Source: a virus. From it: DNA of 51,815 bases. Both the position numbers and the translations under genes were made by a program. Shown here in pieces: positions 312-17,975 of this stretch. The stretch covers positions 1 through 51,815 of the IMG/VR virus record IMGVR_UViG_3300042430_001780; one strand, given 5' to 3'. The notes under the pieces were generated by a model. It had not been told where the DNA came from. It worked only from the letters and a program-made list of their open reading frames with translations, and did not search any database. Positions within the stretch are counted from its first letter, which is position 1; each line of letters begins with the position of its first letter.

Positions 312-314
312 TTC

Positions 315-1975: not shown

Positions 1976-1976
1976 A

Positions 1977-2567: not shown

Positions 2568-2579
2568 CAAAGGAGCAAT

Positions 2580-2951: not shown

Positions 2952-3285
2952 TAAGAATTTTGATGTGAGCAAAGAAGTATGGAGAGATAATGCTTCTTGC
3001 AAAGGTCAAGACTTATCTATCTTTTTCATAGAAAATGAAGAAGGCGCTATATCTAGGAAGAACATAAAAAAAGCTAAATCAATATGTTTAAAGTGTTTAG
3101 TTCAAGTTAAATGTTTAAGCTATGCTTTAAATGAAGATATAAGATATGGAATTTGGGGTGGTATTACCCCAAGAGAAAGATCATCATTAATAAAAGCAAT
3201 TAAAAATAATGATGTTATTGATATACCAATTAAGTTAGTAGATAATAAATTCATAACACCTACAGAAAATAGGAGAATACCATGA
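2944..3285 (+). CDS. WhiB-like iron-sulfur transcription regulator
   Basis: 113 aa with the WhiB signature: C19, then C48-x2-C51-x5-C57 as the four [4Fe-4S] ligands, and the G69-I-W-G-G73 turn followed by a basic-polar tail. WhiB-like proteins are confined to actinobacteria and their phages and act by binding the primary sigma factor, so this is the best host marker in the window. A phage copy probably redirects or silences host promoters. The Cys, GIWGG and length evidence is direct; the target genes are unknown. It overlaps the ParB-like gene by 4 nt. Confidence 0.93.
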   Translation: MIDKNFDVSKEVWRDNASCKGQDLSIFFIENEEGAISRKNIKKAKSICLKCLVQVKCLSYALNEDIRYGIWGGITPRERSSLIKAIKNNDVIDIPIKLVDNKFITPTENRRIP

Positions 3286-4220
3286 AGAATCAAGCGAGAG
3301 TGGAAGAAATAGTAGAAGAAGTTATAACCAGCAAAGATGTTAAATCTATGCATATTCCCATTAAAAACAGTAACCAGCAAGAAATGTTTGGGGCATCATT
3401 TAATAGTGGTCATGTTTCAAAGATATCTTCTTTGGTTAAAGTATCTGATCTGGTAATTGATTACACATACCAGCGTCAGCCGCTTATGAAGAAAGTAAAT
3501 AAGATTGCAAAGAACTTTGACTCAGATATTCTTGGAGTCATTATTTGTTCAATGCGTGAAGATGGCTCATTGGCTGTAATTGATGGTAGTCATAGAGTTC
3601 ATGCTATGCGTGAAAAAGGAATGAATGATTATTCAGTAAATGCTCTTATTTACTTTGATCTAGATATCAAAGACGAAGCAAGAATATTTGCAATGCTTAA
3701 TCAAGAACATACAAAGCCGAATACAACAGATATCTTTAAAGCTGGAATTGTTTCTGGTGATGAAGAAACAATTGCAATTAATAAAATCCTCAGTAGTTTG
3801 GGTTTGATTATTGGAGTTGGACCTGGTGATAATAAGGTTCGTGCTATTTCTACAATTAGGCGTGTTTATCGTAATGCTGGAGATAAAGTATTGCGTGATA
3901 CATTGTATACAATTAAATCAGCTTATGGTGATTCATCCAGCACAATGCGTGATGTTTTGATCTCTGCTGTTGCAATTATTTACAATCGTTATGGTGCAAA
4001 AGTTGAAGTATCTCGTATGGTTACTACATTGCAAAAGTTTGGTAATCCGAATACTCTTATCGCAAATGCAAAATCAATTGGTGTAAATGCAAGTTCTGTT
4101 ACAGCATCTGCTTTACCATTTGTTATTGTAAATGCTTACAATCAAAGATTAACAACAAATCGTCTTAGCGATTACCCAATGAATTTGCTTGCTCAGCAAG
4201 TATGGGTTTCAATTAAATAA
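3282..4220 (+). CDS. ParB-like nuclease-fold domain protein
   Basis: 312 aa. Residues about 45-125 contain YTYQRQ, a GVIICSMREDG strand and DGSHRVHAM, equivalent to the GxHR motif of the ParB/Srx fold (DUF6551-type phage proteins). The remainder is helical and basic, plausibly DNA-binding. Such stand-alone phage proteins are usually annotated only by fold; a role in DNA processing or partitioning is possible but unproven. No parA-like partner is nearby. A GC-rich hairpin follows the gene. Confidence 0.75.
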   Translation: MKNQARVEEIVEEVITSKDVKSMHIPIKNSNQQEMFGASFNSGHVSKISSLVKVSDLVIDYTYQRQPLMKKVNKIAKNFDSDILGVIICSMREDGSLAVIDGSHRVHAMREKGMNDYSVNALIYFDLDIKDEARIFAMLNQEHTKPNTTDIFKAGIVSGDEETIAINKILSSLGLIIGVGPGDNKVRAISTIRRVYRNAGDKVLRDTLYTIKSAYGDSSSTMRDVLISAVAIIYNRYGAKVEVSRMVTTLQKFGNPNTLIANAKSIGVNASSVTASALPFVIVNAYNQRLTTNRLSDYPMNLLAQQVWVSIK

Positions 4221-4227
4221 TAGATTT

Positions 4228-4261
4228 GGGGTTGGGTTAGACTGATCGCTAACTCAACCCC
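4228..4261 (+). terminator. GC-rich hairpin after the ParB-like gene
   Basis: GGGGTTGGGTTAG and CTAACTCAACCCC pair around an 8-nt loop with one internal mismatch. The following ATTTAAG is only weakly U-rich, so it may be a partial terminator or an mRNA 3' end stabiliser. Confidence 0.55.
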
Positions 4262-4293
4262 ATTTAAGTCCCTCTAAACAAAAGGAGAATGAT

Positions 4294-4668
4294 ATGAGTA
4301 ATTATCCACCTGGGGTAACTGGTAATGAATATGAAATTGCTGGTGGTGAAGAAACAGAAGAGTATTGGCAATGTGAAGGTATGGTATCAGCAATTACTGT
4401 AAGTATGCCAACTATTCAAGATATGAGTGAACAAATCTTTAATGTATTTACTAAATTAAAAGAGCATAGTTATACTTCATATCAAGAGTGGATTAATCAA
4501 AATGTAAGAAGTATAAAAAGAACATTAGAAGATCTAATTCATTCTGATGAAGTGGTTGAAGTTGATTGTGGTTTTAATGGAAATGTTTTAATGGAACGAT
4601 ACAAGAATAAAAAATGGTGGTCTTGCCCAAATTGTAGGACAGAGCATGAAATTGAACTTGATTATTAA
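4294..4668 (+). CDS. Hypothetical protein with C-terminal zinc-ribbon-like CxxC
   Basis: 124 aa; AAGGAG ribosome binding site 7 nt upstream. Residues 91-120 carry a single Cys followed by WWSCPNC, which could bind zinc with another ligand, but only three cysteines are present. The central part is helical. No family recognised. Confidence 0.75.
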   Translation: MSNYPPGVTGNEYEIAGGEETEEYWQCEGMVSAITVSMPTIQDMSEQIFNVFTKLKEHSYTSYQEWINQNVRSIKRTLEDLIHSDEVVEVDCGFNGNVLMERYKNKKWWSCPNCRTEHEIELDY

Positions 4669-4688
4669 ACAAAACAAATGGAGGAATG

Positions 4689-5207
4689 ATGGAAGATATT
4701 AAACTACATAGCGTTAAGAATTTAAGAGGAGGATATTTCATTCCTGAGTTTATAGATAAGAAATTCATAACTCAAGATGGAAACCTTGGTGTTAATGTAA
4801 AAGATTACCATACCCGTATGAGTCCTGCATTAGATGGTCAAATGTATTTCAACTATGAATTGAATGATTATGTGTACAGCGGTGTTCAATCTATGTTTTG
4901 GAATAAATGTCAATCAATAGGTCGTAGTTGGGGTTATGATCATGTTGAAAATAGTGGCAGAAGTGGTGGTTGGGCTTGTCCTATGAATATACATTCTTAT
5001 AATTCAACAACTACTTTTAATTATATCAAATGCCCAGAGAATAATTTACTGAGTGACATATCAATTGCAGATGCAATAAAGATTCAAAGATTTAATGGGT
5101 TTGCTAGATATGTGCAATCATTATTCTTTTTAGTAAAATCAGAAATAGTACACATAACAAACATAGATGAGTTCTTTGAACTCAAGAAAGAGGTTGAGTC
5201 ATTATGA
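4689..5207 (+). CDS. Hypothetical protein (172 aa)
   Basis: ATG 4686 and ATG 4689 are both in frame. I prefer 4689 because the GGAGG ribosome binding site at 4680-4684 is too close to 4686. Central aromatic-rich segments (MYFNYELNDYVYSG) suggest a compact beta-rich domain. Overlaps the next gene by 4 nt. Function unknown. Confidence 0.75.
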   Translation: MEDIKLHSVKNLRGGYFIPEFIDKKFITQDGNLGVNVKDYHTRMSPALDGQMYFNYELNDYVYSGVQSMFWNKCQSIGRSWGYDHVENSGRSGGWACPMNIHSYNSTTTFNYIKCPENNLLSDISIADAIKIQRFNGFARYVQSLFFLVKSEIVHITNIDEFFELKKEVESL

Positions 5208-5605
5208 ATACAAAAACTGATAGTTGCGAATCAAGAATTCAAGAAAGTAAAAACAATTGTGAAGAACATCTTGAGCTTATGTTTAAAGTACTTGATAACG
5301 AAAGACTAGATGAGAATGATGAAGATGATGCAAAGATACTTCAACTCATTGAAGATGAAGGATTGAATGAAGATAGCATTTATGAGTACGCATTGGGTGT
5401 TTCAATTCAGAAAGTTATGAAAATTGAATTGAGCACTGGTGGACCTGCTTCTTTTATTGAAGCTTATCTTGATGATGAAAATAATGTTGATGAAGTATTC
5501 TATCACTTTCAAGATTGGTTTGATGGTGCTAAAAGAAAAGTATCAAGCGATTCAGCAATATATAGATATGCCGAATTTATGGCGGAAGGATATGGGGTAC
5601 AGTGA
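5204..5605 (+). CDS. Acidic hypothetical protein (133 aa)
   Basis: Starts in an ATGA overlap with the previous gene. Very acidic and mostly helical, with no recognised motif. Its stop TGA overlaps a possible GTG start of the next frame. Confidence 0.75.
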   Translation: MNTKTDSCESRIQESKNNCEEHLELMFKVLDNERLDENDEDDAKILQLIEDEGLNEDSIYEYALGVSIQKVMKIELSTGGPASFIEAYLDDENNVDEVFYHFQDWFDGAKRKVSSDSAIYRYAEFMAEGYGVQ

Positions 5606-6300
5606 GGGAATTTTTAGAAAGAACAGATTCAGCAGGAAACCAAATATACACAACTAAAACAGGAGAAATAACCATGCAAAATGAAACATTAACAACCAAA
5701 GCAGTATTTCCACAAATTGAAACTATTCCATCACCAGTAAGTAATCTTATTGTTGCGGAAATGTGTTTCCCTAAAGATCAACTTATGATGATGCTGAATG
5801 AAGCATGTGTAACTAAAGATCAAGTTGAAGAAATGATTGAAGAGCACGATATGACCGATTGTGTTGAATCACTTATTGGTGATATTGATTGGACTGATAA
5901 AGTAACAGATGTCCTTAATGATATTGATGTAGAAGATTATCTTGAAATGTCTACTTTTGTTGATAGCGTTATGGAAAATCTTGATTACAGAGATATCGCT
6001 AGCAATGTAAAAGAATATATTGAAGAACCTGATGCTGAATCAATGGCTAGTTCTTTGCTAACATCTTTTAATTATGAAGCACCTTGCTATACTGGTCAAT
6101 TGTATATTAAATCAGTAGAAAGCATTATTGAGGGCTATATGAAGAAACAAACAGAAGGTGTAGTTCAACCAACTGTTATTGTTGATGATGCAGTTCGCCT
6201 TCGTGCATTTACTATTCAAGAAATTAATGAAGTTCTAGATGCTTTGCAATATACTGAATACAATAAGAGTCGTATCCTTACATCACTATCACTAAAATAG
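5602..6300 (+). CDS. Acidic helical hypothetical protein
   Basis: The frame opens with GTG 5602, overlapping the previous stop, but ATG 5674 has a much better ribosome binding site (CAGGAGAAATAACC) and may be the true start, giving 208 aa. The protein is acidic with repeated D/E-rich helices (VEEMIEEHDM, IDVEDYLEM). A scaffold or DNA-mimic role is conceivable only from charge. No family recognised. Confidence 0.7.
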   Translation: MREFLERTDSAGNQIYTTKTGEITMQNETLTTKAVFPQIETIPSPVSNLIVAEMCFPKDQLMMMLNEACVTKDQVEEMIEEHDMTDCVESLIGDIDWTDKVTDVLNDIDVEDYLEMSTFVDSVMENLDYRDIASNVKEYIEEPDAESMASSLLTSFNYEAPCYTGQLYIKSVESIIEGYMKKQTEGVVQPTVIVDDAVRLRAFTIQEINEVLDALQYTEYNKSRILTSLSLK

Positions 6301-6310
6301 AGGGGAACTA

Positions 6311-7969
6311 ATGAAAAAATACATTAAGATTGCAAATAAGTCAGGTAATGTTAGTCGGATAGCCTTAGAAAAACTAGGGCTATCTACTAAAAGAGATGAT
6401 CCAAATACAATTGGACAATTTGGCTCTGGTATTAAATATGCTCCGATTGCCGCATTGAGAATGGGATTGGAATGGATATTTACTGGTACAGACGATAAGG
6501 GTTCCTATGTGCTTAAGTATAAGGTTGAGGAAGAAGATGGAGTTGATTGTATCGTATATGATTACGGTGACTATCAGAAATCATCTTCTTTTACAATTGA
6601 TGCTGGAGTATTAAGTTGGGAAGATTGTTTTCAAATCTATAGAGAAGCTATTGCTAATGCTATGGATGAATCTAATGAAAATGATACAGAATGGTATCGT
6701 GAAATTGTTGAAGCATCTGAAGTAAAACAGAATTACGGTGAGTTTGCTGTTTACATTAGTGCATCTCCAAATATGATGGAAATCTATGATCAGCACGATA
6801 AGTATTTTCTTGAAAATCGTGAGCCTATTCATGAAGGTAAAAATGGTTACGCTAAGGTAAACTTTTTCAATCCCTATTCATCTAGCGAAGGTCATGTATA
6901 TCATAAATCAGTTATGGTTTATGAGAATACAGAGCACGCTTGTCTCTTTGATTATGAAGTTAAATCACTTCGTTTGAATGAAATGAGAACAGTATCTGAT
7001 GAATGGCAAATGAATTACTTGATTGCTCATGGTATTGCTGAATGTACAAATAGTAAAATCATTGAACGAATCCTAGATAATCTAGGAAGCAAGAAGTGGG
7101 AATATAAGTTTAGTGAGACAATTATCGGAACCGCAGACATTACTGATGAGTGGTATAAAGTGTGGGGTAAAAAGTATGGTGAAGCAACTATTATGCTCAA
7201 TTCAATTGAGGATGCAAATAATTCCATCCATATGTATTTGAAAGAAAAAGGACAGAAGTACAAGACTGTTGATTCTTCATTTATATATACGATATTGGCA
7301 AAATCTGGCGTTAATACTTTAGAAAGTATTGCTGGTGAATCAATCAATTATGACATTGATTTTGACACTGATAAGTACCCCAAACTATTGAAAGCAATTG
7401 AAATTGCTGCAAGGTATGAGCCAGGTATTTTAACAATGGAAAGACCAATTGCTTGCTTTACTCCTAAGCAAAATGATACATTTCTCGGTTTACTTATTAA
7501 TAAAGATAACGAAGAGAAGCGTATTCTGATTGAAAAGAATCATGCTAGAGATGGTGAGATATATGAAATAGTTGCTACTATTATTCATGAATATGATCAC
7601 TATACAACTGGTTATTCTGATGGAGATCATGCTGGTAGAAAGTTTAGAGATTTAGCTGATCGTAGAATTGGTAGATTGATGTGTGAAAACTACAAACCAG
7701 ATCTACTATCTGCCTGTGTTGATGGAATTAGTATTCCTCTTAGCAGTATCTCTGATCTTGGTGGTTTGAATTACAATATCCTATACTTCATGGATTCATA
7801 TATCTTGTCCATTGGGAAATGCAAATTTATTATTTCTCAAAAACAATTATCTGATTCAGAAATCAAGTATAATGGTACTGGAGTTATGAAACCATCTGTT
7901 GATGGTCAAAGCATGCTTATTCCTTTTGAGAACTGGAATCATAATAATTTCTACATTAACCAAATTTAA
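6311..7969 (+). CDS. Putative rearranged GHKL ATPase with C-terminal HExxH metallopeptidase motif
   Basis: 552 aa, the largest product of this arm. Residues 33-48 (NTIGQFGSGIKYAPIA) match the ATP-lid glycine box of Hsp90/MORC-type GHKL ATPases. Residues 110-120 (YREAIANAMDE) resemble their N-box helix, but it follows the glycine box instead of preceding it, as if circularly permuted. Residues 426-430 are HEYDH, a zincin HExxH motif, in a helix preceded by hydrophobic residues; H440 or D439 could be the third metal ligand. The motifs are seen; nucleotide binding and peptidase activity are inference. It sits in the unknown-gene operon 10 nt after its neighbour, with an AGGGGAACTA ribosome binding site. 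Confidence 0.6.
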   Translation: MKKYIKIANKSGNVSRIALEKLGLSTKRDDPNTIGQFGSGIKYAPIAALRMGLEWIFTGTDDKGSYVLKYKVEEEDGVDCIVYDYGDYQKSSSFTIDAGVLSWEDCFQIYREAIANAMDESNENDTEWYREIVEASEVKQNYGEFAVYISASPNMMEIYDQHDKYFLENREPIHEGKNGYAKVNFFNPYSSSEGHVYHKSVMVYENTEHACLFDYEVKSLRLNEMRTVSDEWQMNYLIAHGIAECTNSKIIERILDNLGSKKWEYKFSETIIGTADITDEWYKVWGKKYGEATIMLNSIEDANNSIHMYLKEKGQKYKTVDSSFIYTILAKSGVNTLESIAGESINYDIDFDTDKYPKLLKAIEIAARYEPGILTMERPIACFTPKQNDTFLGLLINKDNEEKRILIEKNHARDGEIYEIVATIIHEYDHYTTGYSDGDHAGRKFRDLADRRIGRLMCENYKPDLLSACVDGISIPLSSISDLGGLNYNILYFMDSYILSIGKCKFIISQKQLSDSEIKYNGTGVMKPSVDGQSMLIPFENWNHNNFYINQI

Positions 7970-7980
7970 GGAGTAAGTGT

Positions 7981-8112
7981 ATGTCCGAAAGAACTGGCTG
8001 GATAATTCTATTTGCAGTAGCACCATTGATTGTTATATCATTCCTTGGTCTAGCTGCATTGATTGTTATCCCAGTAGTATTAGCGCTACTAGCAATTGGG
8101 AGTAAAATATAA
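7981..8112 (+). CDS. Small membrane protein (43 aa)
   Basis: ATG 7981 after AAGGAGTAAGTGT. After MSERTGW the protein is almost wholly hydrophobic, enough for one long or two short membrane spans. The stop overlaps the next start by one base. Such peptides in phages include holin and antiholin candidates, but nothing specific is visible here. Confidence 0.7.
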   Translation: MSERTGWIILFAVAPLIVISFLGLAALIVIPVVLALLAIGSKI

Positions 8113-8450
8113 TGCCTAAATTTGATAGCTATTATATAGTTGAGTATAGATATGCAATTTCTATTGAAGATACTTCCACAGTAATGGAGGCAATGTCTAA
8201 AGCAAATAGAATTTGTGAAAGATTACATGGATTTAAACCAGACAATTGGTATGCTAGAATATTTGAATATACCGTTGGAGAGAAAACATCTGGTCATGTA
8301 AAAGAATATTTCTATAATCCCAATTCCGCTACATCTAGAGAAATCACTAAGAACATTTCTTACCATAATGATTTAGTGGCTAAAGGTGAAGCGCCAGCTA
8401 GTATAATTGATTTGAACAAAGAAATGATGGATGATGAAGACATTGAGTAA
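8112..8450 (+). CDS. Hypothetical protein (112 aa)
   Basis: Start overlaps the stop of the membrane peptide gene (TAATG). Mixed alpha/beta composition with several aromatic residues in the first half, no Cys pair, no membrane span. Function unknown. Confidence 0.75.
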   Translation: MPKFDSYYIVEYRYAISIEDTSTVMEAMSKANRICERLHGFKPDNWYARIFEYTVGEKTSGHVKEYFYNPNSATSREITKNISYHNDLVAKGEAPASIIDLNKEMMDDEDIE

Positions 8451-8471
8451 TCATGTTAATATGATGTGTGA

Positions 8472-8477
8472 TATACT
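8472..8477 (+). promoter_or_regulatory. Possible extended -10 promoter (TGTGATATACT)
   Basis: TATACT preceded by TGTGA lies 26 nt before ATG 8504 and after the stop of the preceding gene. No good -35 at standard spacing, so this is a tentative internal promoter. Confidence 0.35.
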
Positions 8478-8503
8478 ATTAGATTACTTTGGAAAGGTTT
8501 AGT

Positions 8504-8827
8504 ATGAAAACAAATGATGAAAATTTATATACAGATCATGCATTACAGTTAATCTCAGCCTTTACGGCTAAAGATATGGATGCTATCTTGCTTTTAGTTG
8601 ATGGTGGTAATGATAAAACATATGTACCAGGCATTCTATTTGGCATGATGGTGCATTTTGAATTATTGCTATCAGCAATTGCTGAGTCAAATGAGATAAC
8701 AAAAATGGAATCCCTACAGCAGTACGCATACTATTATAATTCCATAAGGGAATCATTGAATAATCTAGATATGCTAAAGCCATCAAGTTTTCAAGAAATT
8801 TTAAATAATGATGGAGGTTTGTTATAA
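8504..8827 (+). CDS. Hypothetical helical protein (107 aa)
   Basis: I choose ATG 8504 over an upstream TTG because GGAAAGG at 8491-8497 is well spaced for it. The sequence is helical (ALQLISAFTAKDMDAILLLV), with no recognised motif. Some hydrophobic stretches are too short or interrupted to be clear membrane spans. Confidence 0.7.
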   Translation: MKTNDENLYTDHALQLISAFTAKDMDAILLLVDGGNDKTYVPGILFGMMVHFELLLSAIAESNEITKMESLQQYAYYYNSIRESLNNLDMLKPSSFQEILNNDGGLL

Positions 8828-8934
8828 GATAAACCCTCTGTAAAGCGAGAGTGCAAACTTGTAGATTGCCCTCGTTTTGCATCTAAAGATATGCTAATGC
8901 GAACTAATCGCAAAACCTAACCGATGGAGGCAAA

Positions 8935-9462
8935 ATGAAGACAAAAAATTCAATAATAGGTTTAATAATAAGTTTATATATAGGAGTAATTTCAACAATT
9001 ACATATGCTGCAAATACTAATGAGGTTGAATATAAAAGACCAGTATTTGTACAGAAATCATTGTTAATCATTAATACAGAACCAGTTGTTATTCAGAAAG
9101 TAATGGATAGCAGAGTTCCTAAAGATAAAAGTAAGAGATGCCCTCAATGGGAATCTAAGTTTAAAGAATATGGATTGCCAGTAGATGTGTTTTCATATAT
9201 TGCTTGGAGAGAAAGTGGATGTAACCCCGAAGCAATAAATGCAAAATTTAATTCTAATGGCAAGGTCATATGGACTTTAAATAAAAATGGTTCTATTGAT
9301 AGAGGCTTGGTTCAGATTAATAGTTGCTGGAGATCAGTAACTAAAAAAGTCTGTGGTACTAATCTAAATGGATTGCTCGGTGTAGATTGTAATCTTAAAG
9401 TTGCAAAATATATTATGGACAATTCCGAAGGTAAGTTATTAAACTGGAGAATCCAAAACTAA
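8935..9462 (+). CDS. Secreted lytic transglycosylase / lysozyme-like protein
   Basis: 175 aa. Residues 1-26 are a classical signal peptide (Lys-rich start, hydrophobic core, TYA-A cleavage site). Residues about 83-155 match the SLT/goose-lysozyme-like fold: YIAWRESGCNPEAIN, with E93 as the catalytic acid, and DRGLVQINS, the conserved Gln-Ile-Asn-Ser motif. It would cleave peptidoglycan outside the membrane. It could be a secreted endolysin or a cell-wall enzyme aiding lysis or entry. The gene has a GGAGG ribosome binding site; the 107-nt gap before it may hold a regulatory hairpin (GCGAG...CTCG). Confidence 0.85.
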   Translation: MKTKNSIIGLIISLYIGVISTITYAANTNEVEYKRPVFVQKSLLIINTEPVVIQKVMDSRVPKDKSKRCPQWESKFKEYGLPVDVFSYIAWRESGCNPEAINAKFNSNGKVIWTLNKNGSIDRGLVQINSCWRSVTKKVCGTNLNGLLGVDCNLKVAKYIMDNSEGKLLNWRIQN

Positions 9463-9477
9463 TAGAAAGGGTATTCA

Positions 9478-9912
9478 ATGGGATACTATGTAGACACAAC
9501 AGAAGCGGTCATCTTTATAAATAAAGATAAGTTTGAGGATTGCTATAAAGCAATGTGCAAGCTTAACGAAAGAGATGATCTAAAAAGTGGTGGTAGTTGG
9601 CGTGAGGGAAAAGCTGAATCTAAATGGTTTAGTTGGATGGATGCTAATTACCCAGAGAAATGTAAAAGTATGGAAGATATTTTGCATGAACTTGGCTTTG
9701 AAGGTATTAGCTATGATGAAGAAGGTAATCTGATAGATCTTTGCTATAGCAATAAGATTGGATCTGAGGAACACTTCTTTCAATCAATTGCACCTTTTAT
9801 TAAAGAAGGTAGTTATATCAATTGGTCAGGTGAAGATAATTCTATGTGGCAGTGGTACTTTAATGGTAAAGAATTGGTAACTAAATCAGCCCATATAACT
9901 TGGTCTGAATAA
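9478..9912 (+). CDS. Conserved phage hypothetical protein (144 aa)
   Basis: MGYYVDTTEAVIFINKDKFEDCYKAMCKLNERDDLKSGGSW-type N-termini recur in many phage proteins of unknown function. Trp-rich C-terminus (WSGEDNSMWQWYFNG). No enzymatic motif. It is the last gene before the tRNA/RNA locus. Confidence 0.75.
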   Translation: MGYYVDTTEAVIFINKDKFEDCYKAMCKLNERDDLKSGGSWREGKAESKWFSWMDANYPEKCKSMEDILHELGFEGISYDEEGNLIDLCYSNKIGSEEHFFQSIAPFIKEGSYINWSGEDNSMWQWYFNGKELVTKSAHITWSE

Positions 9913-9918
9913 GTTAAT

Positions 9919-9992
9919 GTATCCGTAGCTCAATTGGATAGAGCAAAACACTTCTAATGTTTAGGTTGTAGGTTCAAGTCCTATCGGATACG
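9919..9992 (+). tRNA. tRNA-Arg (anticodon TCT)
   Basis: Seven-base acceptor stem GTATCCG/CGGATAC fully paired, D-arm AGCTC...GAGC, anticodon stem AAACA/TGTTT with loop CTTCTAA, T-arm GTAGG/CCTAT around TTCAAGT, discriminator G. CCA is not encoded. Reads AGA, a codon frequent in this AT-rich phage. Confidence 0.95.
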
Positions 9993-9996
9993 CTAA

Positions 9997-10079
9997 GTGT
10001 TAGACTAAGGCATTGTTATCCCCTTTCAAAATGCTTATGTAAATAATTGATATCCCCGTATCTTATTTATGTCTAACAC
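9997..10079 (+). ncRNA. Candidate structured RNA with three-way junction
   Basis: Closing stem GTGTTAGAC (9997-10005) with GTCTAACAC (10071-10079). Inside are two hairpins: AAGGCATT/AATGCTT with a 15-nt loop containing ATCCCC, and AAATAA-GATA/TATC-TTATTT with loop TCCCCG. It starts 5 nt after tRNA-Arg, so it may be processed from the same transcript. Strand is assumed from the tRNA. The C-rich loops could pair with G-rich ribosome binding sites. The structure is read directly; function is inferred. Confidence 0.65.
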
Positions 10080-10086
10080 GATTTTA

Positions 10087-10241
10087 AATATGGTATAAAA
10101 AAGAATCAGGCTAAAGCTAATCCTTTCTGCTTAAGAGAAATATGCGTCTGTCTATTACATGAGAATAGAAGATGTCAAAATGTCGTAGTTGTAGTTATCC
10201 GACATAATATTTCTTGCCTGGTTCTTTTTTATACCATATTT
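10087..10241 (+). ncRNA. Candidate large structured RNA with 26-bp closing stem
   Basis: Arms 10087-10112 and 10216-10241 are inverted repeats matching at 25 of 26 positions, the exception being a G-U in RNA. The 103-nt interior contains further hairpins: AAGC/GCTT with loop TAATCCTTTCT, AGAAATAT/ATATTTCT, TCTATT/AATAGA and ATGTCG/CGACAT. No open reading frame of note lies inside. It could be a regulatory RNA, a processing signal or a remnant mobile element. Both strands form the structure, so the strand is assumed. Confidence 0.6.
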
Positions 10242-10246
10242 TTATA

Positions 10247-10298
10247 TACGCCCAGAGAGCGTACTCAAGTTAGCAGATTTAAACATCTCAAAATAACT
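10247..10298 (+). other. Two small hairpins upstream of the next gene
   Basis: TACGC/GCGTA (loop CCAGAGA, 10247-10263), then AGTTA/TAACT enclosing AGAT/ATCT. These sit in the leader of the gene at 10325 and complete a 300-nt structured stretch. Confidence 0.4.
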
Positions 10299-10324
10299 GG
10301 AGTTCAGTACAAATAACAAACAAA

Positions 10325-10663
10325 ATGAAACGAGAGGAAATGAAATCAGTATTAATCAAGTCAAACAATTCAATCAACATTGTTGAAATGGATAAAAAAT
10401 ATTCACTTGAACAACTTCAAAAAGAAGTTGGTGGTTGGATTGAAGTAGTTAAGTTGAATGGCAAAATGTCAATGTATGTAAATGAAGAAGGACTAATGAG
10501 GCAATTTAAAATTAATCCAATAGCAACCTCTTTGTACTTTCAATATACAGGCATTAATACTCCCATTGTTGGAGATGTAGTTATAACTGGAAGGAGCAGT
10601 AACGGAAGTCAAATAAATCTTAAAGATGAATGTGTTGAAGAAATTATGAGTGCGCTTAAATAA
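10325..10663 (+). CDS. Hypothetical protein (112 aa)
   Basis: Two in-frame ATGs (10325, 10340); neither has an ideally spaced ribosome binding site, as GAGAGGA lies between them only 2 nt before 10340. The upstream structured RNA may influence initiation. The protein is a small alpha/beta domain (LEQLQKEVGGWIEVVKLNGKM), reminiscent of small phage proteins with a DUF3846-like VGGxIE core; that resemblance is weak. Confidence 0.65.
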   Translation: MKREEMKSVLIKSNNSINIVEMDKKYSLEQLQKEVGGWIEVVKLNGKMSMYVNEEGLMRQFKINPIATSLYFQYTGINTPIVGDVVITGRSSNGSQINLKDECVEEIMSALK

Positions 10664-10685
10664 TCACTAACAGGAAACGAGATAT

Positions 10686-10865
10686 ATGAAAAATAAAAAA
10701 TCAACCTTTGCGCTTCTTTTGATGAGAGAAGAAAATATTATACAAATAAGAACCCTACAGGGTACTCAAGAGTATGCAATAGAACAAGCAAAGATAGTTA
10801 GAGATTATGGTAAAGACAAATTTGATAATGTTATGGTATACAAAACAACACCACATAGCAAATAA
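10686..10865 (+). CDS. Small hypothetical protein (59 aa)
   Basis: ATG 10686 follows CAGGAAACGAGATAT. Basic N-terminus, then helix-like sequence with EQAKIVRDYGKDKFDNVMVY. No family recognised. Ends 17 nt before the next start. Confidence 0.65.
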   Translation: MKNKKSTFALLLMREENIIQIRTLQGTQEYAIEQAKIVRDYGKDKFDNVMVYKTTPHSK

Positions 10866-10882
10866 TTCCAAGGAGGAATAAC

Positions 10883-11332
10883 ATGCCATTAAGTTACGAT
10901 ATTACAAAAATTGCAATGTACAAAGATAATTACGATGAAGCATACCAAGAGTATAATCAATTAGGTAGTACATATACAGATGTAAAGCCTTTTCTAAAAG
11001 GTTTGATTTTCTCTGGTGGTATGGTTGCCCTTAGTTCAATTACATTTAAAAATGTAGGTGAATGGTATGCCAGATTGAAATTGTGTGAAGAAATGTATCA
11101 TACATATCTTACTTCCAAGTTTGATGAAGAAAAGAATGAATGGGTAAATGTACCTTTGGAAGCAAAAGAAATAGTTAAATACATTGGTTTGGCAACAAAC
11201 AATTCAACTGTTGTAAGAAACAAGTGGGTTCAGAATGTAAAGCGTAATCAAACTGTTGATCTTACAACAACACAAATGATTGCTCGTTTAAAGAAACTAG
11301 AAGAAAAGTTTGAGAGAGAGGTATTCCAATGA
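10883..11332 (+). CDS. Hypothetical protein (149 aa)
   Basis: Strong AAGGAGGAATAAC ribosome binding site. Soluble mixed sequence with a C-terminal helical, charged end (MIARLKKLEEKFEREV). No motif recognised. Overlaps the next gene by 4 nt. Confidence 0.75.
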   Translation: MPLSYDITKIAMYKDNYDEAYQEYNQLGSTYTDVKPFLKGLIFSGGMVALSSITFKNVGEWYARLKLCEEMYHTYLTSKFDEEKNEWVNVPLEAKEIVKYIGLATNNSTVVRNKWVQNVKRNQTVDLTTTQMIARLKKLEEKFEREVFQ

Positions 11333-11649
11333 GTATCAAACACAGTCAAGCAAATATGTATCCAAAGGTTTCAGATTGGTATGAAACAAATGTTGTTGAA
11401 TACCGAGAGAATAATGCTTTTGATAAATGGTATATAGAAATTGTTTATTTTGAAGCAGATGCAGGGTATTATTATGGGTCAGGCAAAGAACAAGTTATGA
11501 GTGGTGCATATCAGAAAGTATTGATCACTGATAAATTAACAGGTAATGTTTGGGAAGATGCATTTCTTGGTGAAACTGCTCATCATGATGTTGAAAGATG
11601 GGCTAATGACATTGTTAATAAAATCAAATATGGGAAGGTTAAGGCATGA
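11329..11649 (+). CDS. Hypothetical protein (106 aa)
   Basis: ATGA overlap with both neighbours. Aromatic-rich, with an alternating beta pattern (WYIEIVYFEADAGYYYGSGKEQ). Function unknown. Confidence 0.75.
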   Translation: MSIKHSQANMYPKVSDWYETNVVEYRENNAFDKWYIEIVYFEADAGYYYGSGKEQVMSGAYQKVLITDKLTGNVWEDAFLGETAHHDVERWANDIVNKIKYGKVKA

Positions 11650-11891
11650 CTTTGATATATAACTATATTCTAGGTTACGATAATTCAGATGGAACTTGGT
11701 TTCATAATGTTGATGCTGAGTCTGATCTTATGGGTTGTAATACAGTTTTTAATGAAAAGTATGAAGAGTATATAAATGAATACAGTAGTGATGGTATTTA
11801 TTTGAGTGACGCAGAACAATTAATAGTTAAATTCAACGAAGCTATTGAAAGGTTAAACAAAAATGAAAACATTAGACGAATTAAAAACTGA
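11646..11891 (+). CDS. Hypothetical protein (81 aa)
   Basis: ATGA overlap with the previous gene and a 29-nt overlap with the next. Acidic; helical C-terminus (LIVKFNEAIERLNKNE). Function unknown. Confidence 0.7.
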   Translation: MTLIYNYILGYDNSDGTWFHNVDAESDLMGCNTVFNEKYEEYINEYSSDGIYLSDAEQLIVKFNEAIERLNKNENIRRIKN

Positions 11892-12270
11892 TCGTGATGT
11901 ATTTGAATTCATTAAGAATCATTTACTTACACAAGGACAACGATCATTAATGGATAATGAATTGACTTGCGCATATCTAGGTGCTGAAGGTAAAAAATGC
12001 GCAGTTGGTGCGTTAATTAGAGAAGATATATACCATTCTTCAATAGAAGAAAAACCTGTTAATCATAGTCTTGTCCGTAGTGCTGTAACAAAATCAGTTC
12101 CTAATTGGATAATTAATACCGATATGTTGGGTGAATTACAATTTATCCATGATGATAGCAGTAATCATGATTGGGAATGGTCTTTAAAAGAATTTGAAAT
12201 TGATAAGCTTGAAGGAGTAAATTATGTTCCAACAAAGGAGGATGAAGATGTCAGAGATTATAGCAATTGA
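11863..12270 (+). CDS. Conserved phage hypothetical, copy 1 of a family pair
   Basis: 135 aa. The CAYLGAEGKKCAVGALI...DIYHSSIEEK...PNW layout is shared with the protein at 15080-15652, so the two are paralogues. The conserved pair of Cys (C-A-Y and K-C-A-x-G) recurs in phage proteins of unknown function. It overlaps the preceding gene by 29 nt and the next by 23 nt. Confidence 0.75.
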   Translation: MKTLDELKTDRDVFEFIKNHLLTQGQRSLMDNELTCAYLGAEGKKCAVGALIREDIYHSSIEEKPVNHSLVRSAVTKSVPNWIINTDMLGELQFIHDDSSNHDWEWSLKEFEIDKLEGVNYVPTKEDEDVRDYSN

Positions 12271-12664
12271 GTTATTGAATGGACATGACTTGAATGAAAA
12301 ACAAACATCTCCAGAATTCTTTTGTTTAGGTTTGTCTAATGCAGTATGCCATGTAAGTATAAATGGTTGTGATCCTGTAACTATTTATTGTGATGGGGAT
12401 ATGCGTCTTATTTATAATGAAGACACAATAACTGATTGCTATGAATTAGTAGATAATGGTATCACTACTGATAGTGAATTAGCAGATATTTTTGATGAAG
12501 CTGAAGATGGATCAAGAGTTATTATGAACCCTTGGTTTGATATTTACGATAGTGAAGGTGAACACTTAGATATTGTTAGTTATGATATCTATCAAGCAAT
12601 TGAAGATGCAAAAATCTACATAAGAGAAAGAGAGTTAGCTAATGACAAAAAGATTAAGGTTTAG
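12248..12664 (+). CDS. Acidic hypothetical protein (138 aa)
   Basis: An upstream ATG at 12224 exists, but AAAGGAGG at 12234-12241 fixes the start at ATG 12248. Acidic with repeated beta-like segments (VIMNPWFDIYDSEGEHLDIV). No family recognised. Confidence 0.75.
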   Translation: MSEIIAIELLNGHDLNEKQTSPEFFCLGLSNAVCHVSINGCDPVTIYCDGDMRLIYNEDTITDCYELVDNGITTDSELADIFDEAEDGSRVIMNPWFDIYDSEGEHLDIVSYDIYQAIEDAKIYIRERELANDKKIKV

Positions 12665-12890
12665 TTATAATGATGTAAATCTTTCTTGGGAAAGAAAGCT
12701 GGAGTTAGATTATGAATATAAAGATCTATCAACTATTCATGCCAATCACGCAAAAGAATTGATGGCTAGTATAGAATTTGATCCTAGATGTATTCCAACA
12801 ATTACTGATCCAGCATTAACTGAAGCATTAATTCATGCTCAATTAAGTACAACATATGCAATACTGAATGACACTCACAATGGTAAGTGA
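12642..12890 (+). CDS. Hypothetical protein (82 aa)
   Basis: Begins inside the previous gene (23-nt overlap) and overlaps the next by 11 nt. Charged N-terminus, helical middle (HANHAKELMASI). Function unknown. Confidence 0.65.
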   Translation: MTKRLRFSYNDVNLSWERKLELDYEYKDLSTIHANHAKELMASIEFDPRCIPTITDPALTEALIHAQLSTTYAILNDTHNGK

Positions 12891-13023
12891 TAATACAGAA
12901 CATAAACATGAATGGGAATGCTCAGATGTTCCTGGTATATTTAATTGTTTATCGTGTGATGATATAAGATTGTATAACTATATTGATAAACAATACAGGA
13001 TATATCCTAAAGAAAGGGTTTAA
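12880..13023 (+). CDS. Small zinc-finger-like protein (47 aa)
   Basis: ATG 12880 overlaps the previous gene. H-x-H-E-W-E-C14 followed by C23-L-S-C26 resembles the short HxWxC...CxxC zinc ribbons common in actinophages. Zinc binding is inferred from spacing. Confidence 0.6.
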   Translation: MVSDNTEHKHEWECSDVPGIFNCLSCDDIRLYNYIDKQYRIYPKERV

Positions 13024-13025
13024 CA

Positions 13026-13229
13026 ATGGCAATGTATTCAGCACATATAGTATTTGATAGACATACGGTTTATATAAACCCGTGGGTATCAAGTGCAATG
13101 GATGAGGATGAATTAGAAGATGAAGCAATTGAAATGCTTCTTGAACTTTATCCAGATTTAACAAAACAACAAGAAGAACAGTTAGTTAAGAGTATTCAAG
13201 ATATAGAAGTAGAATTACAAACCGACTAG
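13026..13229 (+). CDS. Hypothetical protein (67 aa)
   Basis: Starts 2 nt after the previous stop, with GAAAGGG upstream. Short beta segment then an acidic helical tail. Function unknown. Confidence 0.65.
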   Translation: MAMYSAHIVFDRHTVYINPWVSSAMDEDELEDEAIEMLLELYPDLTKQQEEQLVKSIQDIEVELQTD

Positions 13230-13242
13230 AGGAGAAGTAGAT

Positions 13243-13584
13243 ATGGCAACTCGTAAAGTACCTAAGAAATTTGAAGCTAAGAAAGATGCTAAGACAGAAG
13301 CACAACTTTTGATTCAAGCAACAGTTAATAGTACATATAGTTTATTAATTCCGTGTAAGAATGAGCAATTCGTCTATGTAAGAAATCCAATTACAGGTAA
13401 AATTTCTCATTTTGAAATCAACAAACCTGAGTTCTTTGAATTCATTAAAGAACTTACAACATTAGGACTAGGAGAAAAAATTGAAAAAGACTTTGAAGAT
13501 CTTGTACACAATAACAATAGTAATTGGGTTAAAGTTCTTGATCAATTGCGTGAAAGCAATGCGTTCAAACTGGAACAAGTATGA
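13243..13584 (+). CDS. Hypothetical protein with basic N-terminus (113 aa)
   Basis: Good GAGGAGAAG ribosome binding site. The first 18 residues are Lys-rich (RKVPKKFEAKKDAK), possibly nucleic-acid-binding, followed by a compact domain. Overlaps the next gene by 4 nt. Confidence 0.7.
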   Translation: MATRKVPKKFEAKKDAKTEAQLLIQATVNSTYSLLIPCKNEQFVYVRNPITGKISHFEINKPEFFEFIKELTTLGLGEKIEKDFEDLVHNNNSNWVKVLDQLRESNAFKLEQV

Positions 13585-13835
13585 CAACAGTAAAAGAAGC
13601 AATTAAAATGCTTAAGTCTTATTCAGACCAAGATGAAGAAATTTGTATTGCTTGGTGGAGTAAAGAACTATTTGAAAACCAAACTAATTCAGATGAAGAT
13701 AATAAAGTAACAGAAGAAGCTTGGAATAAGGTTGTATTAGAGTTTGATGATATGACTGAGCATTACCAAGGATTAATATACGACATAATTGTAGAAACAA
13801 TAACTGAATATAATGGATGGAGTGAGAATGAATAA
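13581..13835 (+). CDS. Acidic hypothetical protein (84 aa)
   Basis: ATGA overlap with the previous gene. VKEAIKMLKSYSDQDEEICIAWWSKELF resembles a short family of acidic phage proteins (DxDExI...W) of unknown function. Confidence 0.7.
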   Translation: MTTVKEAIKMLKSYSDQDEEICIAWWSKELFENQTNSDEDNKVTEEAWNKVVLEFDDMTEHYQGLIYDIIVETITEYNGWSENE

Positions 13836-13974
13836 AATAGATGGAAATCAGTTACGCAGTAAGTTAGAAAAACTTATGCCTCATTGTTCACTTGATGAAG
13901 ATAATGAAGGTCAAGTTATTATTTATACCAACCTAAAAGAAACAACAAACGGAAACTATAAGGAGTTAAAATGA
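13828..13974 (+). CDS. Small hypothetical protein (48 aa)
   Basis: ATG 13828 overlaps the previous gene by 8 nt and the next by 4 nt. LRSKLEKLMPHCSLDEDNEGQVIIYTNL is a pattern I have seen in small phage proteins, without known function. Confidence 0.65.
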   Translation: MNKIDGNQLRSKLEKLMPHCSLDEDNEGQVIIYTNLKETTNGNYKELK

Positions 13975-14600
13975 ACAAAGATAATATGCGGAAAGTAATT
14001 GATGCCATTAAATTTGATGGTGCAAAGAAATTTAATATGAGTGTATTTGTCGGAAAGCTTGAATATGAAGATGATCATATAAGCGTATTTGAAAATGATG
14101 AATTAGCTCATACATTCCCTGTAAGTAGAGTTAGGGTTATACATGAAGGTACTGATTTGTTTAATTGTACCTCAATGGGTTGTATTGCTGGTTTTGCTAC
14201 AGCATTGGCTAATGATTGGAAAACTCCTGACTGGATGAGAAAAGATGATCCTTCAGGTCATCTATATCAATTTGAAAATGAAGCTGCTAATTACTTAGGA
14301 TTAAGTACTGCTGAGGCTAAGAATCTTTTCTTCGGAGATGATAATAGTATTTGGAAATGGCTAATGCATCATGAAGCAGAAAGATATCCAAATCTAGAAT
14401 TGGAAGATTATGAAACAATGCAAGACGCAAATGATTGTGAGATTGAATGGGATGATAGAGATCTATACGCAAACTTTCATACCATTGATTATCTTACTGC
14501 AGTGGATGTTTTAACTAGAATCTTTAATGAAGAAATTGGTTTGGCTTGTGATGAAATGCAACAACCTTATTATATCAAGAAAGAAGCGGTAGTGTCATGA
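13971..14600 (+). CDS. Conserved hypothetical, copy 1 of a duplicated family
   Basis: 209 aa. Closely related to the protein at 15654-16280 along its length: RKVIDAIKFDGAKKFNM, GTDLFNCTSMGCIAGFATA, IDYLTAVDVLTRI and the C-terminal PYYIKKEA. The CTSMGCIAGFA core with its two cysteines is the most conserved part. No known family. The two copies arose by duplication and have diverged. Confidence 0.8.
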   Translation: MNKDNMRKVIDAIKFDGAKKFNMSVFVGKLEYEDDHISVFENDELAHTFPVSRVRVIHEGTDLFNCTSMGCIAGFATALANDWKTPDWMRKDDPSGHLYQFENEAANYLGLSTAEAKNLFFGDDNSIWKWLMHHEAERYPNLELEDYETMQDANDCEIEWDDRDLYANFHTIDYLTAVDVLTRIFNEEIGLACDEMQQPYYIKKEAVVS

Positions 14601-14791
14601 GTAATCCATATTGGAGGGGAATGGTTAAAGATGCACTCGGTTGTGATGATGATTACGCCGATATTCTTTTAAATTTCCAATATAAAGTATCTAATGGTCC
14701 AGATTTTTCTGAAGCTAGCGAAGGAGAATTGGATAAGTATTGGAGATGGATACATCTAGAATATCAAGACCACCTAAAGGAGAATAAATAA
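14597..14791 (+). CDS. Hypothetical protein (64 aa)
   Basis: ATGA overlap with the previous gene and a one-base overlap with the next (TAATG). Acidic, Trp-rich (YWRWIHLEYQ). Function unknown. Confidence 0.65.
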   Translation: MSNPYWRGMVKDALGCDDDYADILLNFQYKVSNGPDFSEASEGELDKYWRWIHLEYQDHLKENK

Positions 14792-15012
14792 TGGAAGTAA
14801 TTGGAAGAAAAATTGTTGATGTAAGATCACTTAATAAGAAAGTAATTGAGAAAGAGGGTTGGGATAATAGTCCTTATAACTCTGTTTGTTTGGTATTAGA
14901 TGATGGTTCAATTATCTATCCCTCACAAGATGAAGAAGGTAATGGTCCAGGTTGTTTCTTTGCAATGGATAAAGAAATGGACACTGCCTTTTATATTTTC
15001 CCAAATGAGTGA
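14791..15012 (+). CDS. Hypothetical protein (73 aa)
   Basis: Start overlaps the previous stop by one base; AAAGGAG upstream. Beta-rich small domain (VCLVLDDGSIIYPSQDEEGNGPGCFF). Similar short proteins occur in other phages; function unknown. The 67-nt gap after it holds a tandem TATAAACGAT repeat. Confidence 0.7.
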   Translation: MEVIGRKIVDVRSLNKKVIEKEGWDNSPYNSVCLVLDDGSIIYPSQDEEGNGPGCFFAMDKEMDTAFYIFPNE

Positions 15013-15079
15013 ACTATCTAGCATTTAACATTTATAAACGATTATAAACGATTACAGACCCAAATGGAGGGCTTTTAAT

Positions 15080-15652
15080 ATGGAAACACTAGAACAATTA
15101 AAGAAAGATTTATCTGAAATAACTAATGACGGACAAGCTTTGCGTCATATTGCAAAAAACCTTATAAAACAGAATATGAAATCAAGGTTACTTGCGTATG
15201 AATATGACGAAGATACAGGCGATGATATTGTCATAAATGATGATGATTGTGCTTATCGTGGTATGGATGTAAAAACTAAGACAGACACAAAATGTGCCAT
15301 TGGTTGGCTTATTTTGGATAATCTTTATGATCCAGATATAGAGGGTAAAACAGCAGTTGATGATGAAGTATTAGACGCTGTTAATGAATCAACTCCTAAT
15401 TGGAATAAAACAGATAAGAGTATGGCTATGCTTTCTTTTGCACAAAGAATTCATGATGCCAATGAACCTAAAGATTGGCAAAAGGTATTTGCTGTAACTG
15501 ATTATAAATTAATCTGTCCTTTAGACGATTCTTTTAGATTAGATAAAGACAGTACTGATATTGTTGTTGAAGATCTGATTAAAGCATATAAGATTTCAGA
15601 TTCGTATAATAGAGACTATCCAAACAATAAACAAGAAAAGGCAGGGAAATAA
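15080..15652 (+). CDS. Conserved phage hypothetical, copy 2 of a family pair
   Basis: 190 aa. Shares DDCAYRGMD...TKCAIGWLI...YDPDIEGK...STPNWN with the 11863 protein, plus an extended C-terminus. Directly followed by copy 2 of the other duplicated family, as if a two-family block had been duplicated. GGAGG ribosome binding site. Confidence 0.75.
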   Translation: METLEQLKKDLSEITNDGQALRHIAKNLIKQNMKSRLLAYEYDEDTGDDIVINDDDCAYRGMDVKTKTDTKCAIGWLILDNLYDPDIEGKTAVDDEVLDAVNESTPNWNKTDKSMAMLSFAQRIHDANEPKDWQKVFAVTDYKLICPLDDSFRLDKDSTDIVVEDLIKAYKISDSYNRDYPNNKQEKAGK

Positions 15653-15653
15653 C

Positions 15654-16280
15654 ATGAATAAGGAAAACTTACAAAGAGTAATTGATGCCATTAAGATTGA
15701 TGGTGCGACAAAATTTAACATGAGCACATTCATTGGTAAATTTGACGAAGAGTATAAAGTTGAAAATGTATTTGAACATGGTGAATTAGCAAGTACATAT
15801 AGGGCAGATCAAGTAAAGAATATGATTGTGGGTACTGATATTTTCAATTGTACATCTATGGGTTGTATTGCTGGGTTTGCTACAGCAATAGTTAATAACT
15901 GGAAAGCTCCTGAATGGTTAGCAGGTGACGATACTATTGACTTTGTTCGTCAGTTTGAAACAGAGTCAAATGATTTCTTAGGCTTTTCTTATGACGAAGG
16001 AAGAAACATTTATTACAATGCTGATTCATGTATTTGGAAATGGTTGATGGTTAATGAACCAGATAGGTATGAATTTAAACTTGAAGGTGATTATGAAACA
16101 ATAGATGAAGCAACTGAATACGGAGAAGAGTGGGATAGTGGTGATTTGTGTGTTGATTTCACTTCTATTGATTATCTTTCTGCAGTAAATGTATTGACCA
16201 GAATATTAAATGAAGAAATTGGTTTGTGCGATCACAATAAAGAGCCTTTCTATATTAAGAAAGAAGCCTTAGTAGACTAA
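15654..16280 (+). CDS. Conserved hypothetical, copy 2 of a duplicated family
   Basis: 208 aa; paralogue of 13971-14600 with the same length and the same conserved blocks (GTDIFNCTSMGCIAGFATA). Starts 1 nt after the previous stop with CAGGGAAATAAC upstream. Confidence 0.8.
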   Translation: MNKENLQRVIDAIKIDGATKFNMSTFIGKFDEEYKVENVFEHGELASTYRADQVKNMIVGTDIFNCTSMGCIAGFATAIVNNWKAPEWLAGDDTIDFVRQFETESNDFLGFSYDEGRNIYYNADSCIWKWLMVNEPDRYEFKLEGDYETIDEATEYGEEWDSGDLCVDFTSIDYLSAVNVLTRILNEEIGLCDHNKEPFYIKKEALVD

Positions 16281-16308
16281 TAAGTAACCTATTTGAAAGG
16301 ATTGGGGT

Positions 16309-16632
16309 ATGTCAACTTATACAGATAGACATAAGAGAGCGCATCAAAGAAAACAAGAAATGAAGAAATTAAACCCAGATTATAAAGGGAGAGTTAAAGG
16401 AGAAAGAACTCAAGCTAGAAATAGAAGAACGGAGAAGTGCTTAATTGAAATAGGTTTTGATCATACCAAAATTCATACAGGGATTTGTTGTTTTATTGGC
16501 TGCAATACGGTTAAGAGTCAGTATAACAAAGATCATTGCTGTGTGTTGCATCAAAAGCTAATTGTTTCAAGAGGGTTCTTCTTTATTATTGAAAGAGAAA
16601 ACTATTCAAAAGCAGAAGGGAGGGATATATGA
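16309..16632 (+). CDS. Basic hypothetical protein, possible zinc-binding (107 aa)
   Basis: The first 45 residues are Arg/Lys-rich (KRAHQRKQEMKK, ERTQARNRRTEK). The centre has CC, C and HCC-H residues (GICCFIGCN, KDHCCVLHQK) that could bind a metal. A nucleic-acid role is plausible from charge only. Start follows GGATTGGGGT. Confidence 0.65.
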   Translation: MSTYTDRHKRAHQRKQEMKKLNPDYKGRVKGERTQARNRRTEKCLIEIGFDHTKIHTGICCFIGCNTVKSQYNKDHCCVLHQKLIVSRGFFFIIERENYSKAEGRDI

Positions 16633-16760
16633 GAATGGTATTAGCATTGTTCCTAGGGTTATACATTGGACTTCATTGGCATACCAAGAGAAGTGTAGAT
16701 AAATATGATTACCCTGGAGAAAATAAAAGACATATTCATCGGCATTGGGAAAGGGATTAA
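16629..16760 (+). CDS. Small membrane-anchored peptide (43 aa)
   Basis: ATGA overlap with the previous gene. Residues 3-15 are hydrophobic (MVLALFLGLYIGL), too short for a secure span, then a His-rich polar tail (HWHTKR, RHIHRHW). Function unknown. Confidence 0.6.
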   Translation: MRMVLALFLGLYIGLHWHTKRSVDKYDYPGENKRHIHRHWERD

Positions 16761-16763
16761 GTT

Positions 16764-17033
16764 ATGGCTATTGATAAACATGGAGAATATATGGATCTTA
16801 CTTTAGAACAAATGGAAAGTGGTATTGTTTTAATTAAGGGATTTATTGAGGATTTACAGCATTCTGTTATGGGATATATGGTTACTTCTCACCCTGATTA
16901 TGACAGTATCAATGGCATTTTAAATAACCTTAGGTTATTGATTGCGGAGTATAAAAGGGATTTATATGAAGATTTTGTAAATACTACATATGGACATGGA
17001 CACGAAACAAATGATTGGAGCCCAACATTATGA
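16764..17033 (+). CDS. Hypothetical protein (89 aa)
   Basis: Ribosome binding site AAAGGGATTAAGTT. Helical with a short HGHGHE-type C-terminal tail. Overlaps the next gene by 4 nt. Function unknown. Confidence 0.7.
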   Translation: MAIDKHGEYMDLTLEQMESGIVLIKGFIEDLQHSVMGYMVTSHPDYDSINGILNNLRLLIAEYKRDLYEDFVNTTYGHGHETNDWSPTL

Positions 17034-17194
17034 AATACGAAGATAATAAGGATAGGATGATTCCAGTAAAATTAGATGCTGTAAGAGTAATGCAAGATCC
17101 AGAAACTGGTGAATTCTTTTATGATATCTGTTATGAATGTGACAAAATGTTAAATGAAGAGGAGGCTGCTTATGGACATGACTGTGAAGGATGA
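17030..17194 (+). CDS. Small Cys-containing hypothetical protein (54 aa)
   Basis: ATGA overlap. CYECDK (CxxC, residues 34-37) and a final HDC could form a small zinc site. Overlaps the next gene by 23 nt. Confidence 0.6.
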   Translation: MKYEDNKDRMIPVKLDAVRVMQDPETGEFFYDICYECDKMLNEEEAAYGHDCEG

Positions 17195-17807: not shown

Positions 17808-17901
17808 AAATATAGATTGAAATAATTATAGAGAGAAATAGCTGAAAGATTATTAGAAGGAAATAGCTGAAAACTATTAGCATTAGTAAGTAAAGCGTTC
17901 C

Positions 17902-17943: not shown

Positions 17944-17975
17944 AATATTTAGCTGATATATCACAGAATAAGAGT

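Follow-up and report, generated by a model that had tools for sequence, protein, structure and literature searches.

Short and long forms of a conserved phage RNA family tied to tRNA-Arg(UCU)

The window analyzed here comprises positions 1-51,815 of the virus record IMGVR_UViG_3300042430_001780 in IMG/VR. Its tRNA-Arg(UCU) gene is followed by two structured RNAs, a short one (RNA A) and a long one (RNA B). The features of the locus are as follows.

9478..9912, + strand: upstream neighbour gene, conserved, without a Pfam family, GAAAGGG in its binding site (homologue search, Pfam)
9919..9992, + strand: tRNA-Arg(UCU), followed by CUAA, CCA not encoded (ARAGORN, 9919-9993; Rfam RF00005, 70.3 bits, 9919-9992)
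9997..10079, + strand: RNA A, three-way-junction RNA (fold prediction; covariance-model match at 9990-10087)
9997..10005, + strand: 5′ arm of RNA A P1, 9 bp with 10071-10079 (fold; compensatory changes among copies)
10008..10036, + strand: RNA A P2 hairpin, inner hairpin 1 (fold; CCUUUC at 10022-10027 kept in all copies)
10039..10070, + strand: RNA A P1b/tip hairpin, inner hairpin 2, CCCC loop closed by a U-G pair (fold)
10086..10241, + strand: RNA B, long-rod RNA, full-length family member (fold; 125 bits with model R1 and 120.7 bits with model R2, being in both training sets)
10086..10111, + strand: 5′ arm of RNA B P1, 26 bp with 10216-10241 (fold, covariation)
10114..10132, + strand: RNA B P2 hairpin, CCUUUC at 10122-10127 (fold, alignment)
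10135..10143, + strand: 5′ arm of RNA B P1b, GAGAAAUAU, pairs with 10207-10215 (fold, alignment, covariation)
10144..10175, + strand: RNA B P3 hairpin (fold, alignment, covariation)
10181..10204, + strand: RNA B P4 hairpin, UYAAA-like junction before it (fold, alignment)
10343..10663, + strand: downstream DUF3846 gene, in an ORF listed from 10325 (Pfam PF12957, E = 4.9e-17)

The 83 nt of RNA A (9997-10079, plus strand) were predicted to fold with a minimum free energy (MFE) of -20.8 kcal/mol, and the MFE structure was identical to the centroid. The original prediction described a three-way junction with a 9-bp closing stem and two inner hairpins. This was borne out by the fold (z = -5.7), as none of 200 dinucleotide shuffles was equally stable. 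Each inner hairpin was thought to present UCCCC in its loop. We found that the loop of inner hairpin 1 comprises 15 nt (GUUAUCCCCUUUCAA), and that of inner hairpin 2 is strictly CCCC, its adjoining U being paired with G. The predicted adjacency to tRNA-Arg was also correct, although the spacing was computed as 3-4 nt rather than 5 nt. The predicted element is thus real but only half of a pair; RNA B, which starts six nt 3′ of RNA A, had been missed. RNA B is a rod of 26 bp that carries a hairpin on its side and forks at its tip. The plan shared by the family is P1, CUAA, P2 (with a CCUUUC loop), UAAG and P1b, followed in RNA B by P3 and P4.

Homologues of the protein encoded at 9478-9912 were found at 14 loci in viral contigs, and the sequence downstream of them was inspected. 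Further copies came from a tRNA-pattern scan and RNA-pattern scans, and one (L100, an RNA B in the 83.6-kb record of L020) from a whole-record model search. That search gave a match in 18 of 22 records; those without one were L007, L008 and L042, which carry RNA A only, and L011, which carries neither RNA. From three RNA-pattern scans, only the copies in L001, L007, L008 and L042 were retained. Pattern matches in other contexts (L018, L033-L041, L043-L046, L069 and L072-L084) were left out before counting, and 16 loci from a pattern demanding a letter absent from most copies (L047-L062) had no model match. Near-identical records were counted once: L002/L021/L030 were merged with L001, L004/L005/L022/L025/L031 with L003, L019 with L009, L027 with L007, L028 with L008, L032 with L006, L063 with L010, L068 with L067, and L071 with L070. 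This gave 16 rows of RNA B (the window, L001, L003, L006, L009, L010, L023, L024, L026, L029, L064, L065, L066, L067, L070 and L100) and five copies of RNA A, four of them beyond the window (L001, L007, L008 and L042). L001 is a near-twin of the window, and two sets of loci, L023/L026/L029 and L003/L024/L070, are closely related; the rows therefore outnumber the independent lineages.

A single covariance model accommodates the 16 distinct copies of RNA B, all of which come from phage contigs. Outside its training set, R1 matched L067 (99.8 bits), L009 (62.7), L100 (57.6), L065 (50.1) and L010 (44.5). Letters invariant across the 16 rows include GCUA, CCUUUC and AAG, and the junction before P4 reads UYAAA in most of them. 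Covariation was surveyed in A3, an alignment of nine RNA B sequences made without structure, from which the structure was itself derived. Among its 39 pairs, 24 had changes on both sides yet remained paired, compared with 11.5 in shuffles. Similarly, 97.7% of the cells were paired, compared with 82.3% in shuffles, and none of 500 shuffles, which ignore relatedness, reached any of the five measures. When the partners were slid by 1-3 columns, the pairs with changes on both sides dropped to 2-6; this control is biased in favour of the structure, which came from the same alignment. We also counted 46 G-U pairs versus one A-C pair in A3, and 80 versus two in A6, an alignment fitted to the model. 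Because G-U pairs far outnumber A-C pairs, selection acts on the plus-strand RNA. RNA B works as an RNA from the plus strand.

RNA A scored modestly with these models, which were trained on RNA B only: 22.3 bits with R1, and 28.5 bits with R2 (E = 1e-4, second after RNA B in positions 1-18000 of the window). The R2 match was obtained unfiltered and is missed with default filters. The other copies of RNA A scored 31.2 (L001), 24.5 (L007), 24.4 (L008) and 15.9 bits (L042, E = 0.91) with R2; the E-values of both models are rough, according to the tool's own statement. The models set the stem, the CUAA junction, P2 and P1b of RNA A on the matching positions and omitted P3/P4. Thus, the three-way junction would be the family core and the second C-rich loop a replaceable tip. 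The window shares that tip loop with its near-twin L001 alone; L007, L008 and L042 lack it. P1, P2 and P1b, in that order and with pairing kept through compensatory change, were found in the copies of both RNAs. In the five copies of RNA A, whose arms were set by hand, changes on both sides were seen in five of the eight P1 pairs and one of the five P2 pairs. The P3/P4 domain, present in RNA B, is replaced in RNA A by a simple hairpin, which is why we call RNA A, probably, a short relative of RNA B. The original prediction would have been refuted by homologues that keep neither stems nor loops. In the homologues found (16 rows of RNA B and five copies of RNA A), the stems and the first loop were kept in all copies and the second loop was not; inner hairpin 1, rather than inner hairpin 2, is the conserved one. 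We are highly confident that this is a genuine RNA family.

The position of the family is also conserved. Fourteen of the 16 copies of RNA B lie behind tRNA-Arg(UCU), the exceptions being L010 and L100, which have no adjoining tRNA. Four of the 14 (L023, L024, L026 and L029) came from the tRNA pattern; excluding them, the count is 10 of 12. In most copies, the gap between tRNA and RNA spans anything from a few nucleotides to several tens, and in L029 it is about 110 nt. In the window and L001, RNA A stands between the tRNA and RNA B. Four of the five copies of RNA A are likewise behind tRNA-Arg(UCU), and the fifth, in L042, is behind a tRNA read as UUA by ARAGORN. L020 has a tRNA-Arg without an RNA behind it, while the same record carries the RNA elsewhere (L100). 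The next gene encodes DUF3846 in most loci and other products in L009, L010, L065 and L100, so a constant downstream gene was not found. A promoter scan, in itself weak evidence, listed no promoter-like site from the tRNA through to the 3′ end of RNA B, which fits one transcript. No terminator-like site was listed on the plus strand of the RNA region. From the distance, processing out of the tRNA precursor seems plausible. The proposal of a functional RNA tied to the tRNA is well supported by the conserved structure and loop and by the fact that nearly every copy directly follows tRNA-Arg. The family is conserved and virus-borne, occurs in a short and a long form, and is tied to tRNA-Arg(UCU).

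Other features of these loci were noted. A candidate third hairpin, ACTCAAGTTA...TAACTGGAGT, lies behind RNA B at 10262-10312 of the window. A similar one was seen in L067, and it is missing from the near-twin L001; therefore, it seems to come and go. In L003, hairpin-rich elements (5470-5815) separate tRNA-Arg from the upstream neighbour gene, and elements of this kind are alike just 5′ of the tRNA in L006, L024, L064 and L070. At L042:4960-5030 (minus strand), a tRNA with the anticodon UUA, which reads a stop codon, stands at the position that tRNA-Arg(UCU) takes in other phages. Recoding of TAA, which this tRNA might suggest, was unsupported, as TAA still closes most open frames there.

Against Rfam 15, only tRNA exceeded the gathering cut-off in the window and the 14 loci, and weak-threshold searches gave nothing convincing. 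The family is absent from Rfam 15. No description of such an RNA was found in the literature searched, whose scope left out bioRxiv and most subscription journals. One pattern scan of bacterial genome contigs returned 27 stretches; when these were scored with R1, none was convincing, the best reaching 18.5 bits (E = 0.07). The whole records of eight isolated phages (T4, MellowYellow, Rizwana, Wilde, Achelous, VCO139, PPAT and Sf-CH11) contained no copy of the RNA. Two RNA stretches were also compared by blastn with 50,697 phage records; the matches listed (2 of 2, and the best 20 of 218) covered the tRNA only or were due to chance. The closest isolated relatives of the upstream protein are in Arthrobacter phages (38-44% identity), where the RNA is absent. 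This kinship hints that the hosts may be actinobacterial. In the Vibrio phage VCO139 (L136), about 930 nt without annotated genes lie directly behind tRNA-Arg (1593-2523). They gave no match with R2 and may hold other RNAs.

Among known RNAs, the closest arrangement is that of phage T4, where rnaD (119 nt) comes right after the tRNA and rnaC (139 nt) is next. As in the window, the two T4 RNAs (the stable RNAs species 2 and 1) are a tandem pair directly behind tRNA-Arg(UCU). However, they gave no match to R1 or R2 even unfiltered (best 3.0 bits, with R2), and their predicted folds differ. Homology to rnaC/rnaD was therefore rejected, and the likeness is one of arrangement, not of membership. 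The T4 pair are reported as late RNAs of unknown function (PMC9697503); discussion of T4 RNAs of this kind was not found in the accessible part of PMC9693318. GOLLD and ROOL are structured phage or prophage RNAs of unknown function, often near tRNA islands (PMC12286853). In contrast to our family, which has no Rfam match, they are much larger (GOLLD is often >800 nt) and more elaborate. Several phage lineages keep folded RNAs near or behind tRNA genes. To these we add a compact and sharply defined family, with a short and a long form, a fixed six-letter loop and a strong tie to one tRNA, tRNA-Arg(UCU). As this family is small and its loop is fixed, simple mutants could test the role of tRNA-side RNAs.

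The loop is unchanged throughout the family. CCUUUC was found in the P2 loop of all 21 RNAs (16 of 16 rows of RNA B and five of five copies of RNA A), some of which had been found by patterns requiring it. It was likewise present in all 14 RNAs found without a loop pattern; these came from the window, from the neighbour-protein search or from the tRNA-pattern scan. C-rich-loop bacterial sRNAs pair with ribosome binding sites, and our family also offers a pyrimidine loop on a hairpin. It differs from them in its conserved word and its rigid multi-helix architecture, and its targets are candidates only. In the original prediction, it was the UCCCC loops that might block G-rich ribosome binding sites; the conserved word is CCUUUC instead. 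Its complement does precede genes: in the first 18.2 kb of the window and the 14 loci, 55 of 82 GAAAGG and 10 of 13 GAAAGGG occurrences lay before starts. Comparatively, the ordinary Shine-Dalgarno words AAGGAG (50/82) and AGGAGA (54/81) did so too, and the linkage of GAAAGG to starts was no higher.

The binding site of the upstream neighbour is of the GAAAGG type in seven of nine homologues. By eye, it could pair over 7-8 letters with RNA A of the window, L001 and L008; in L007 (RNA A) and in L003 and L006 (RNA B), the pairing would span six letters. The exceptions were L009 and L010, which have GAAAGA and carry the RNA, and L011, which has GAAAGG and no convincing RNA match. This pattern is roughly what a Shine-Dalgarno complement alone would give. 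The binding sites of the next genes are AGGAG-type in L003, L064, L070, L066 and L065 and pair poorly with the loop. Pairing in cis with the next gene's site was inconsistent among copies and was rejected.

What is observed is a conserved plus-strand RNA structure with an unchanged loop and a link to a tRNA. The most likely mechanism is that of a stable RNA freed with the tRNA and working through its CCUUUC loop. RNA A and RNA B would be co-transcribed with tRNA-Arg(UCU), and the enzymes responsible for trimming the end of the tRNA would release them; the closed stem would keep the freed RNA stable. With its P2 hairpin, it would then act at sites other than its own gene. We put the probability of such action in trans by a stable RNA at about 0.6. 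As a last step, which we suggest only tentatively, the loop may bind purine stretches of the GAAAGG type, ribosome binding sites among them.

The strongest alternative is a stable RNA that binds a protein or the ribosome, its CCUUUC hairpin docking a host or phage factor as a counterpart of T4 rnaC/rnaD or GOLLD. The loop unchanged across copies and the genome layout, which is that of rnaD/rnaC, would suit this role, and PMC12286853 mentions GOLLD pull-downs with bound ribosomes. In a variant, the loop possibly mimics the 3′ tail of 16S rRNA and titrates a factor that acts on that tail. The 16S rRNA 3′ tail is pyrimidine-rich, ACCUCCUUUC. The loops of L065, L010, L100 and RNA B of the window share 8-9 letters with it, but most copies share just CCUUUC(U), a short pyrimidine word. 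We give docking only slightly less weight than the pairing with binding sites, and likewise suggest it tentatively. A further extension is quite improbable: a phage RNA with a 16S-tail word in its hairpin loop, released with tRNA-Arg, might redirect translation starts during infection, and T4 rnaC/rnaD might be independent answers to the same need. If true, it would offer a way into the function of the long-unexplained T4 RNAs.

It is also conceivable, if unlikely, that the element is a helper of the tRNA: the stem behind the tRNA would protect the precursor's 3′ end or define where trimming stops, and the RNA itself would be a by-product. Most copies are a few to tens of nucleotides behind a tRNA, and the CCA is not encoded. 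However, L010 and L100 carry the RNA without a tRNA, the tRNA-Arg of L020 has none behind it, and a guard stem would need neither the elaborate P3/P4 domain nor a fixed loop.

A contact inside the RNA might instead fix the loop: CCUUU could form base triples along the P1b sequence GAAA, or UUUC could pair with GAAA. GAAA was present in P1b of all 13 RNA B strings checked, and three A-U pairs of P1b are invariant in nine sequences. In contrast, RNA A of the window, L007, L008 and L042 keeps the loop without GAAA. An outside partner of the loop is therefore favoured, and we regard the internal contact as having little chance of being right.

Less probable still is a riboswitch-like leader or attenuator of the next gene. 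Copies are indeed followed by a gene at a distance of about 100 nt or less, in most cases the DUF3846 gene. But the differing next genes of L009, L010, L065 and L100 count against a leader for one gene, the loop does not track the next gene's binding site, and the window has two RNAs in tandem.

A DNA element, a terminator or a chance fold, which the AT-rich genome and the U-runs after several copies might suggest, was ruled out for practical purposes by the covariation, the imbalance of G-U over A-C, the z of -5.7 and the absence of a listed plus-strand terminator-like site. By eye, we also considered an attC-like site (ends GTTAGAC...GTCTAAC). This reading was dropped because the arms vary among copies while pairing persists.

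Elsewhere in the window, a structured-looking stretch precedes the transglycosylase (SLT) gene at 8935 (8800-8935), and a similar-looking one precedes its homologue in L011. Near position 18000, strand use flips and the GC content, about 32% before, rises to 43-48%, which may mark either a module border or an assembly join. At 19900-23800 (minus strand), there are six similar modules, which look like a repeated regulatory leader. Each combines a small gene with a terminator-like hairpin and a stretch common to all six (gtattcaatat ... cgctggagtgcaacttgagctaggcgcaccgttgcccacca). Finally, the 494-aa protein encoded at 47726-49210 resembles, by eye, flavin-dependent tryptophan halogenases.
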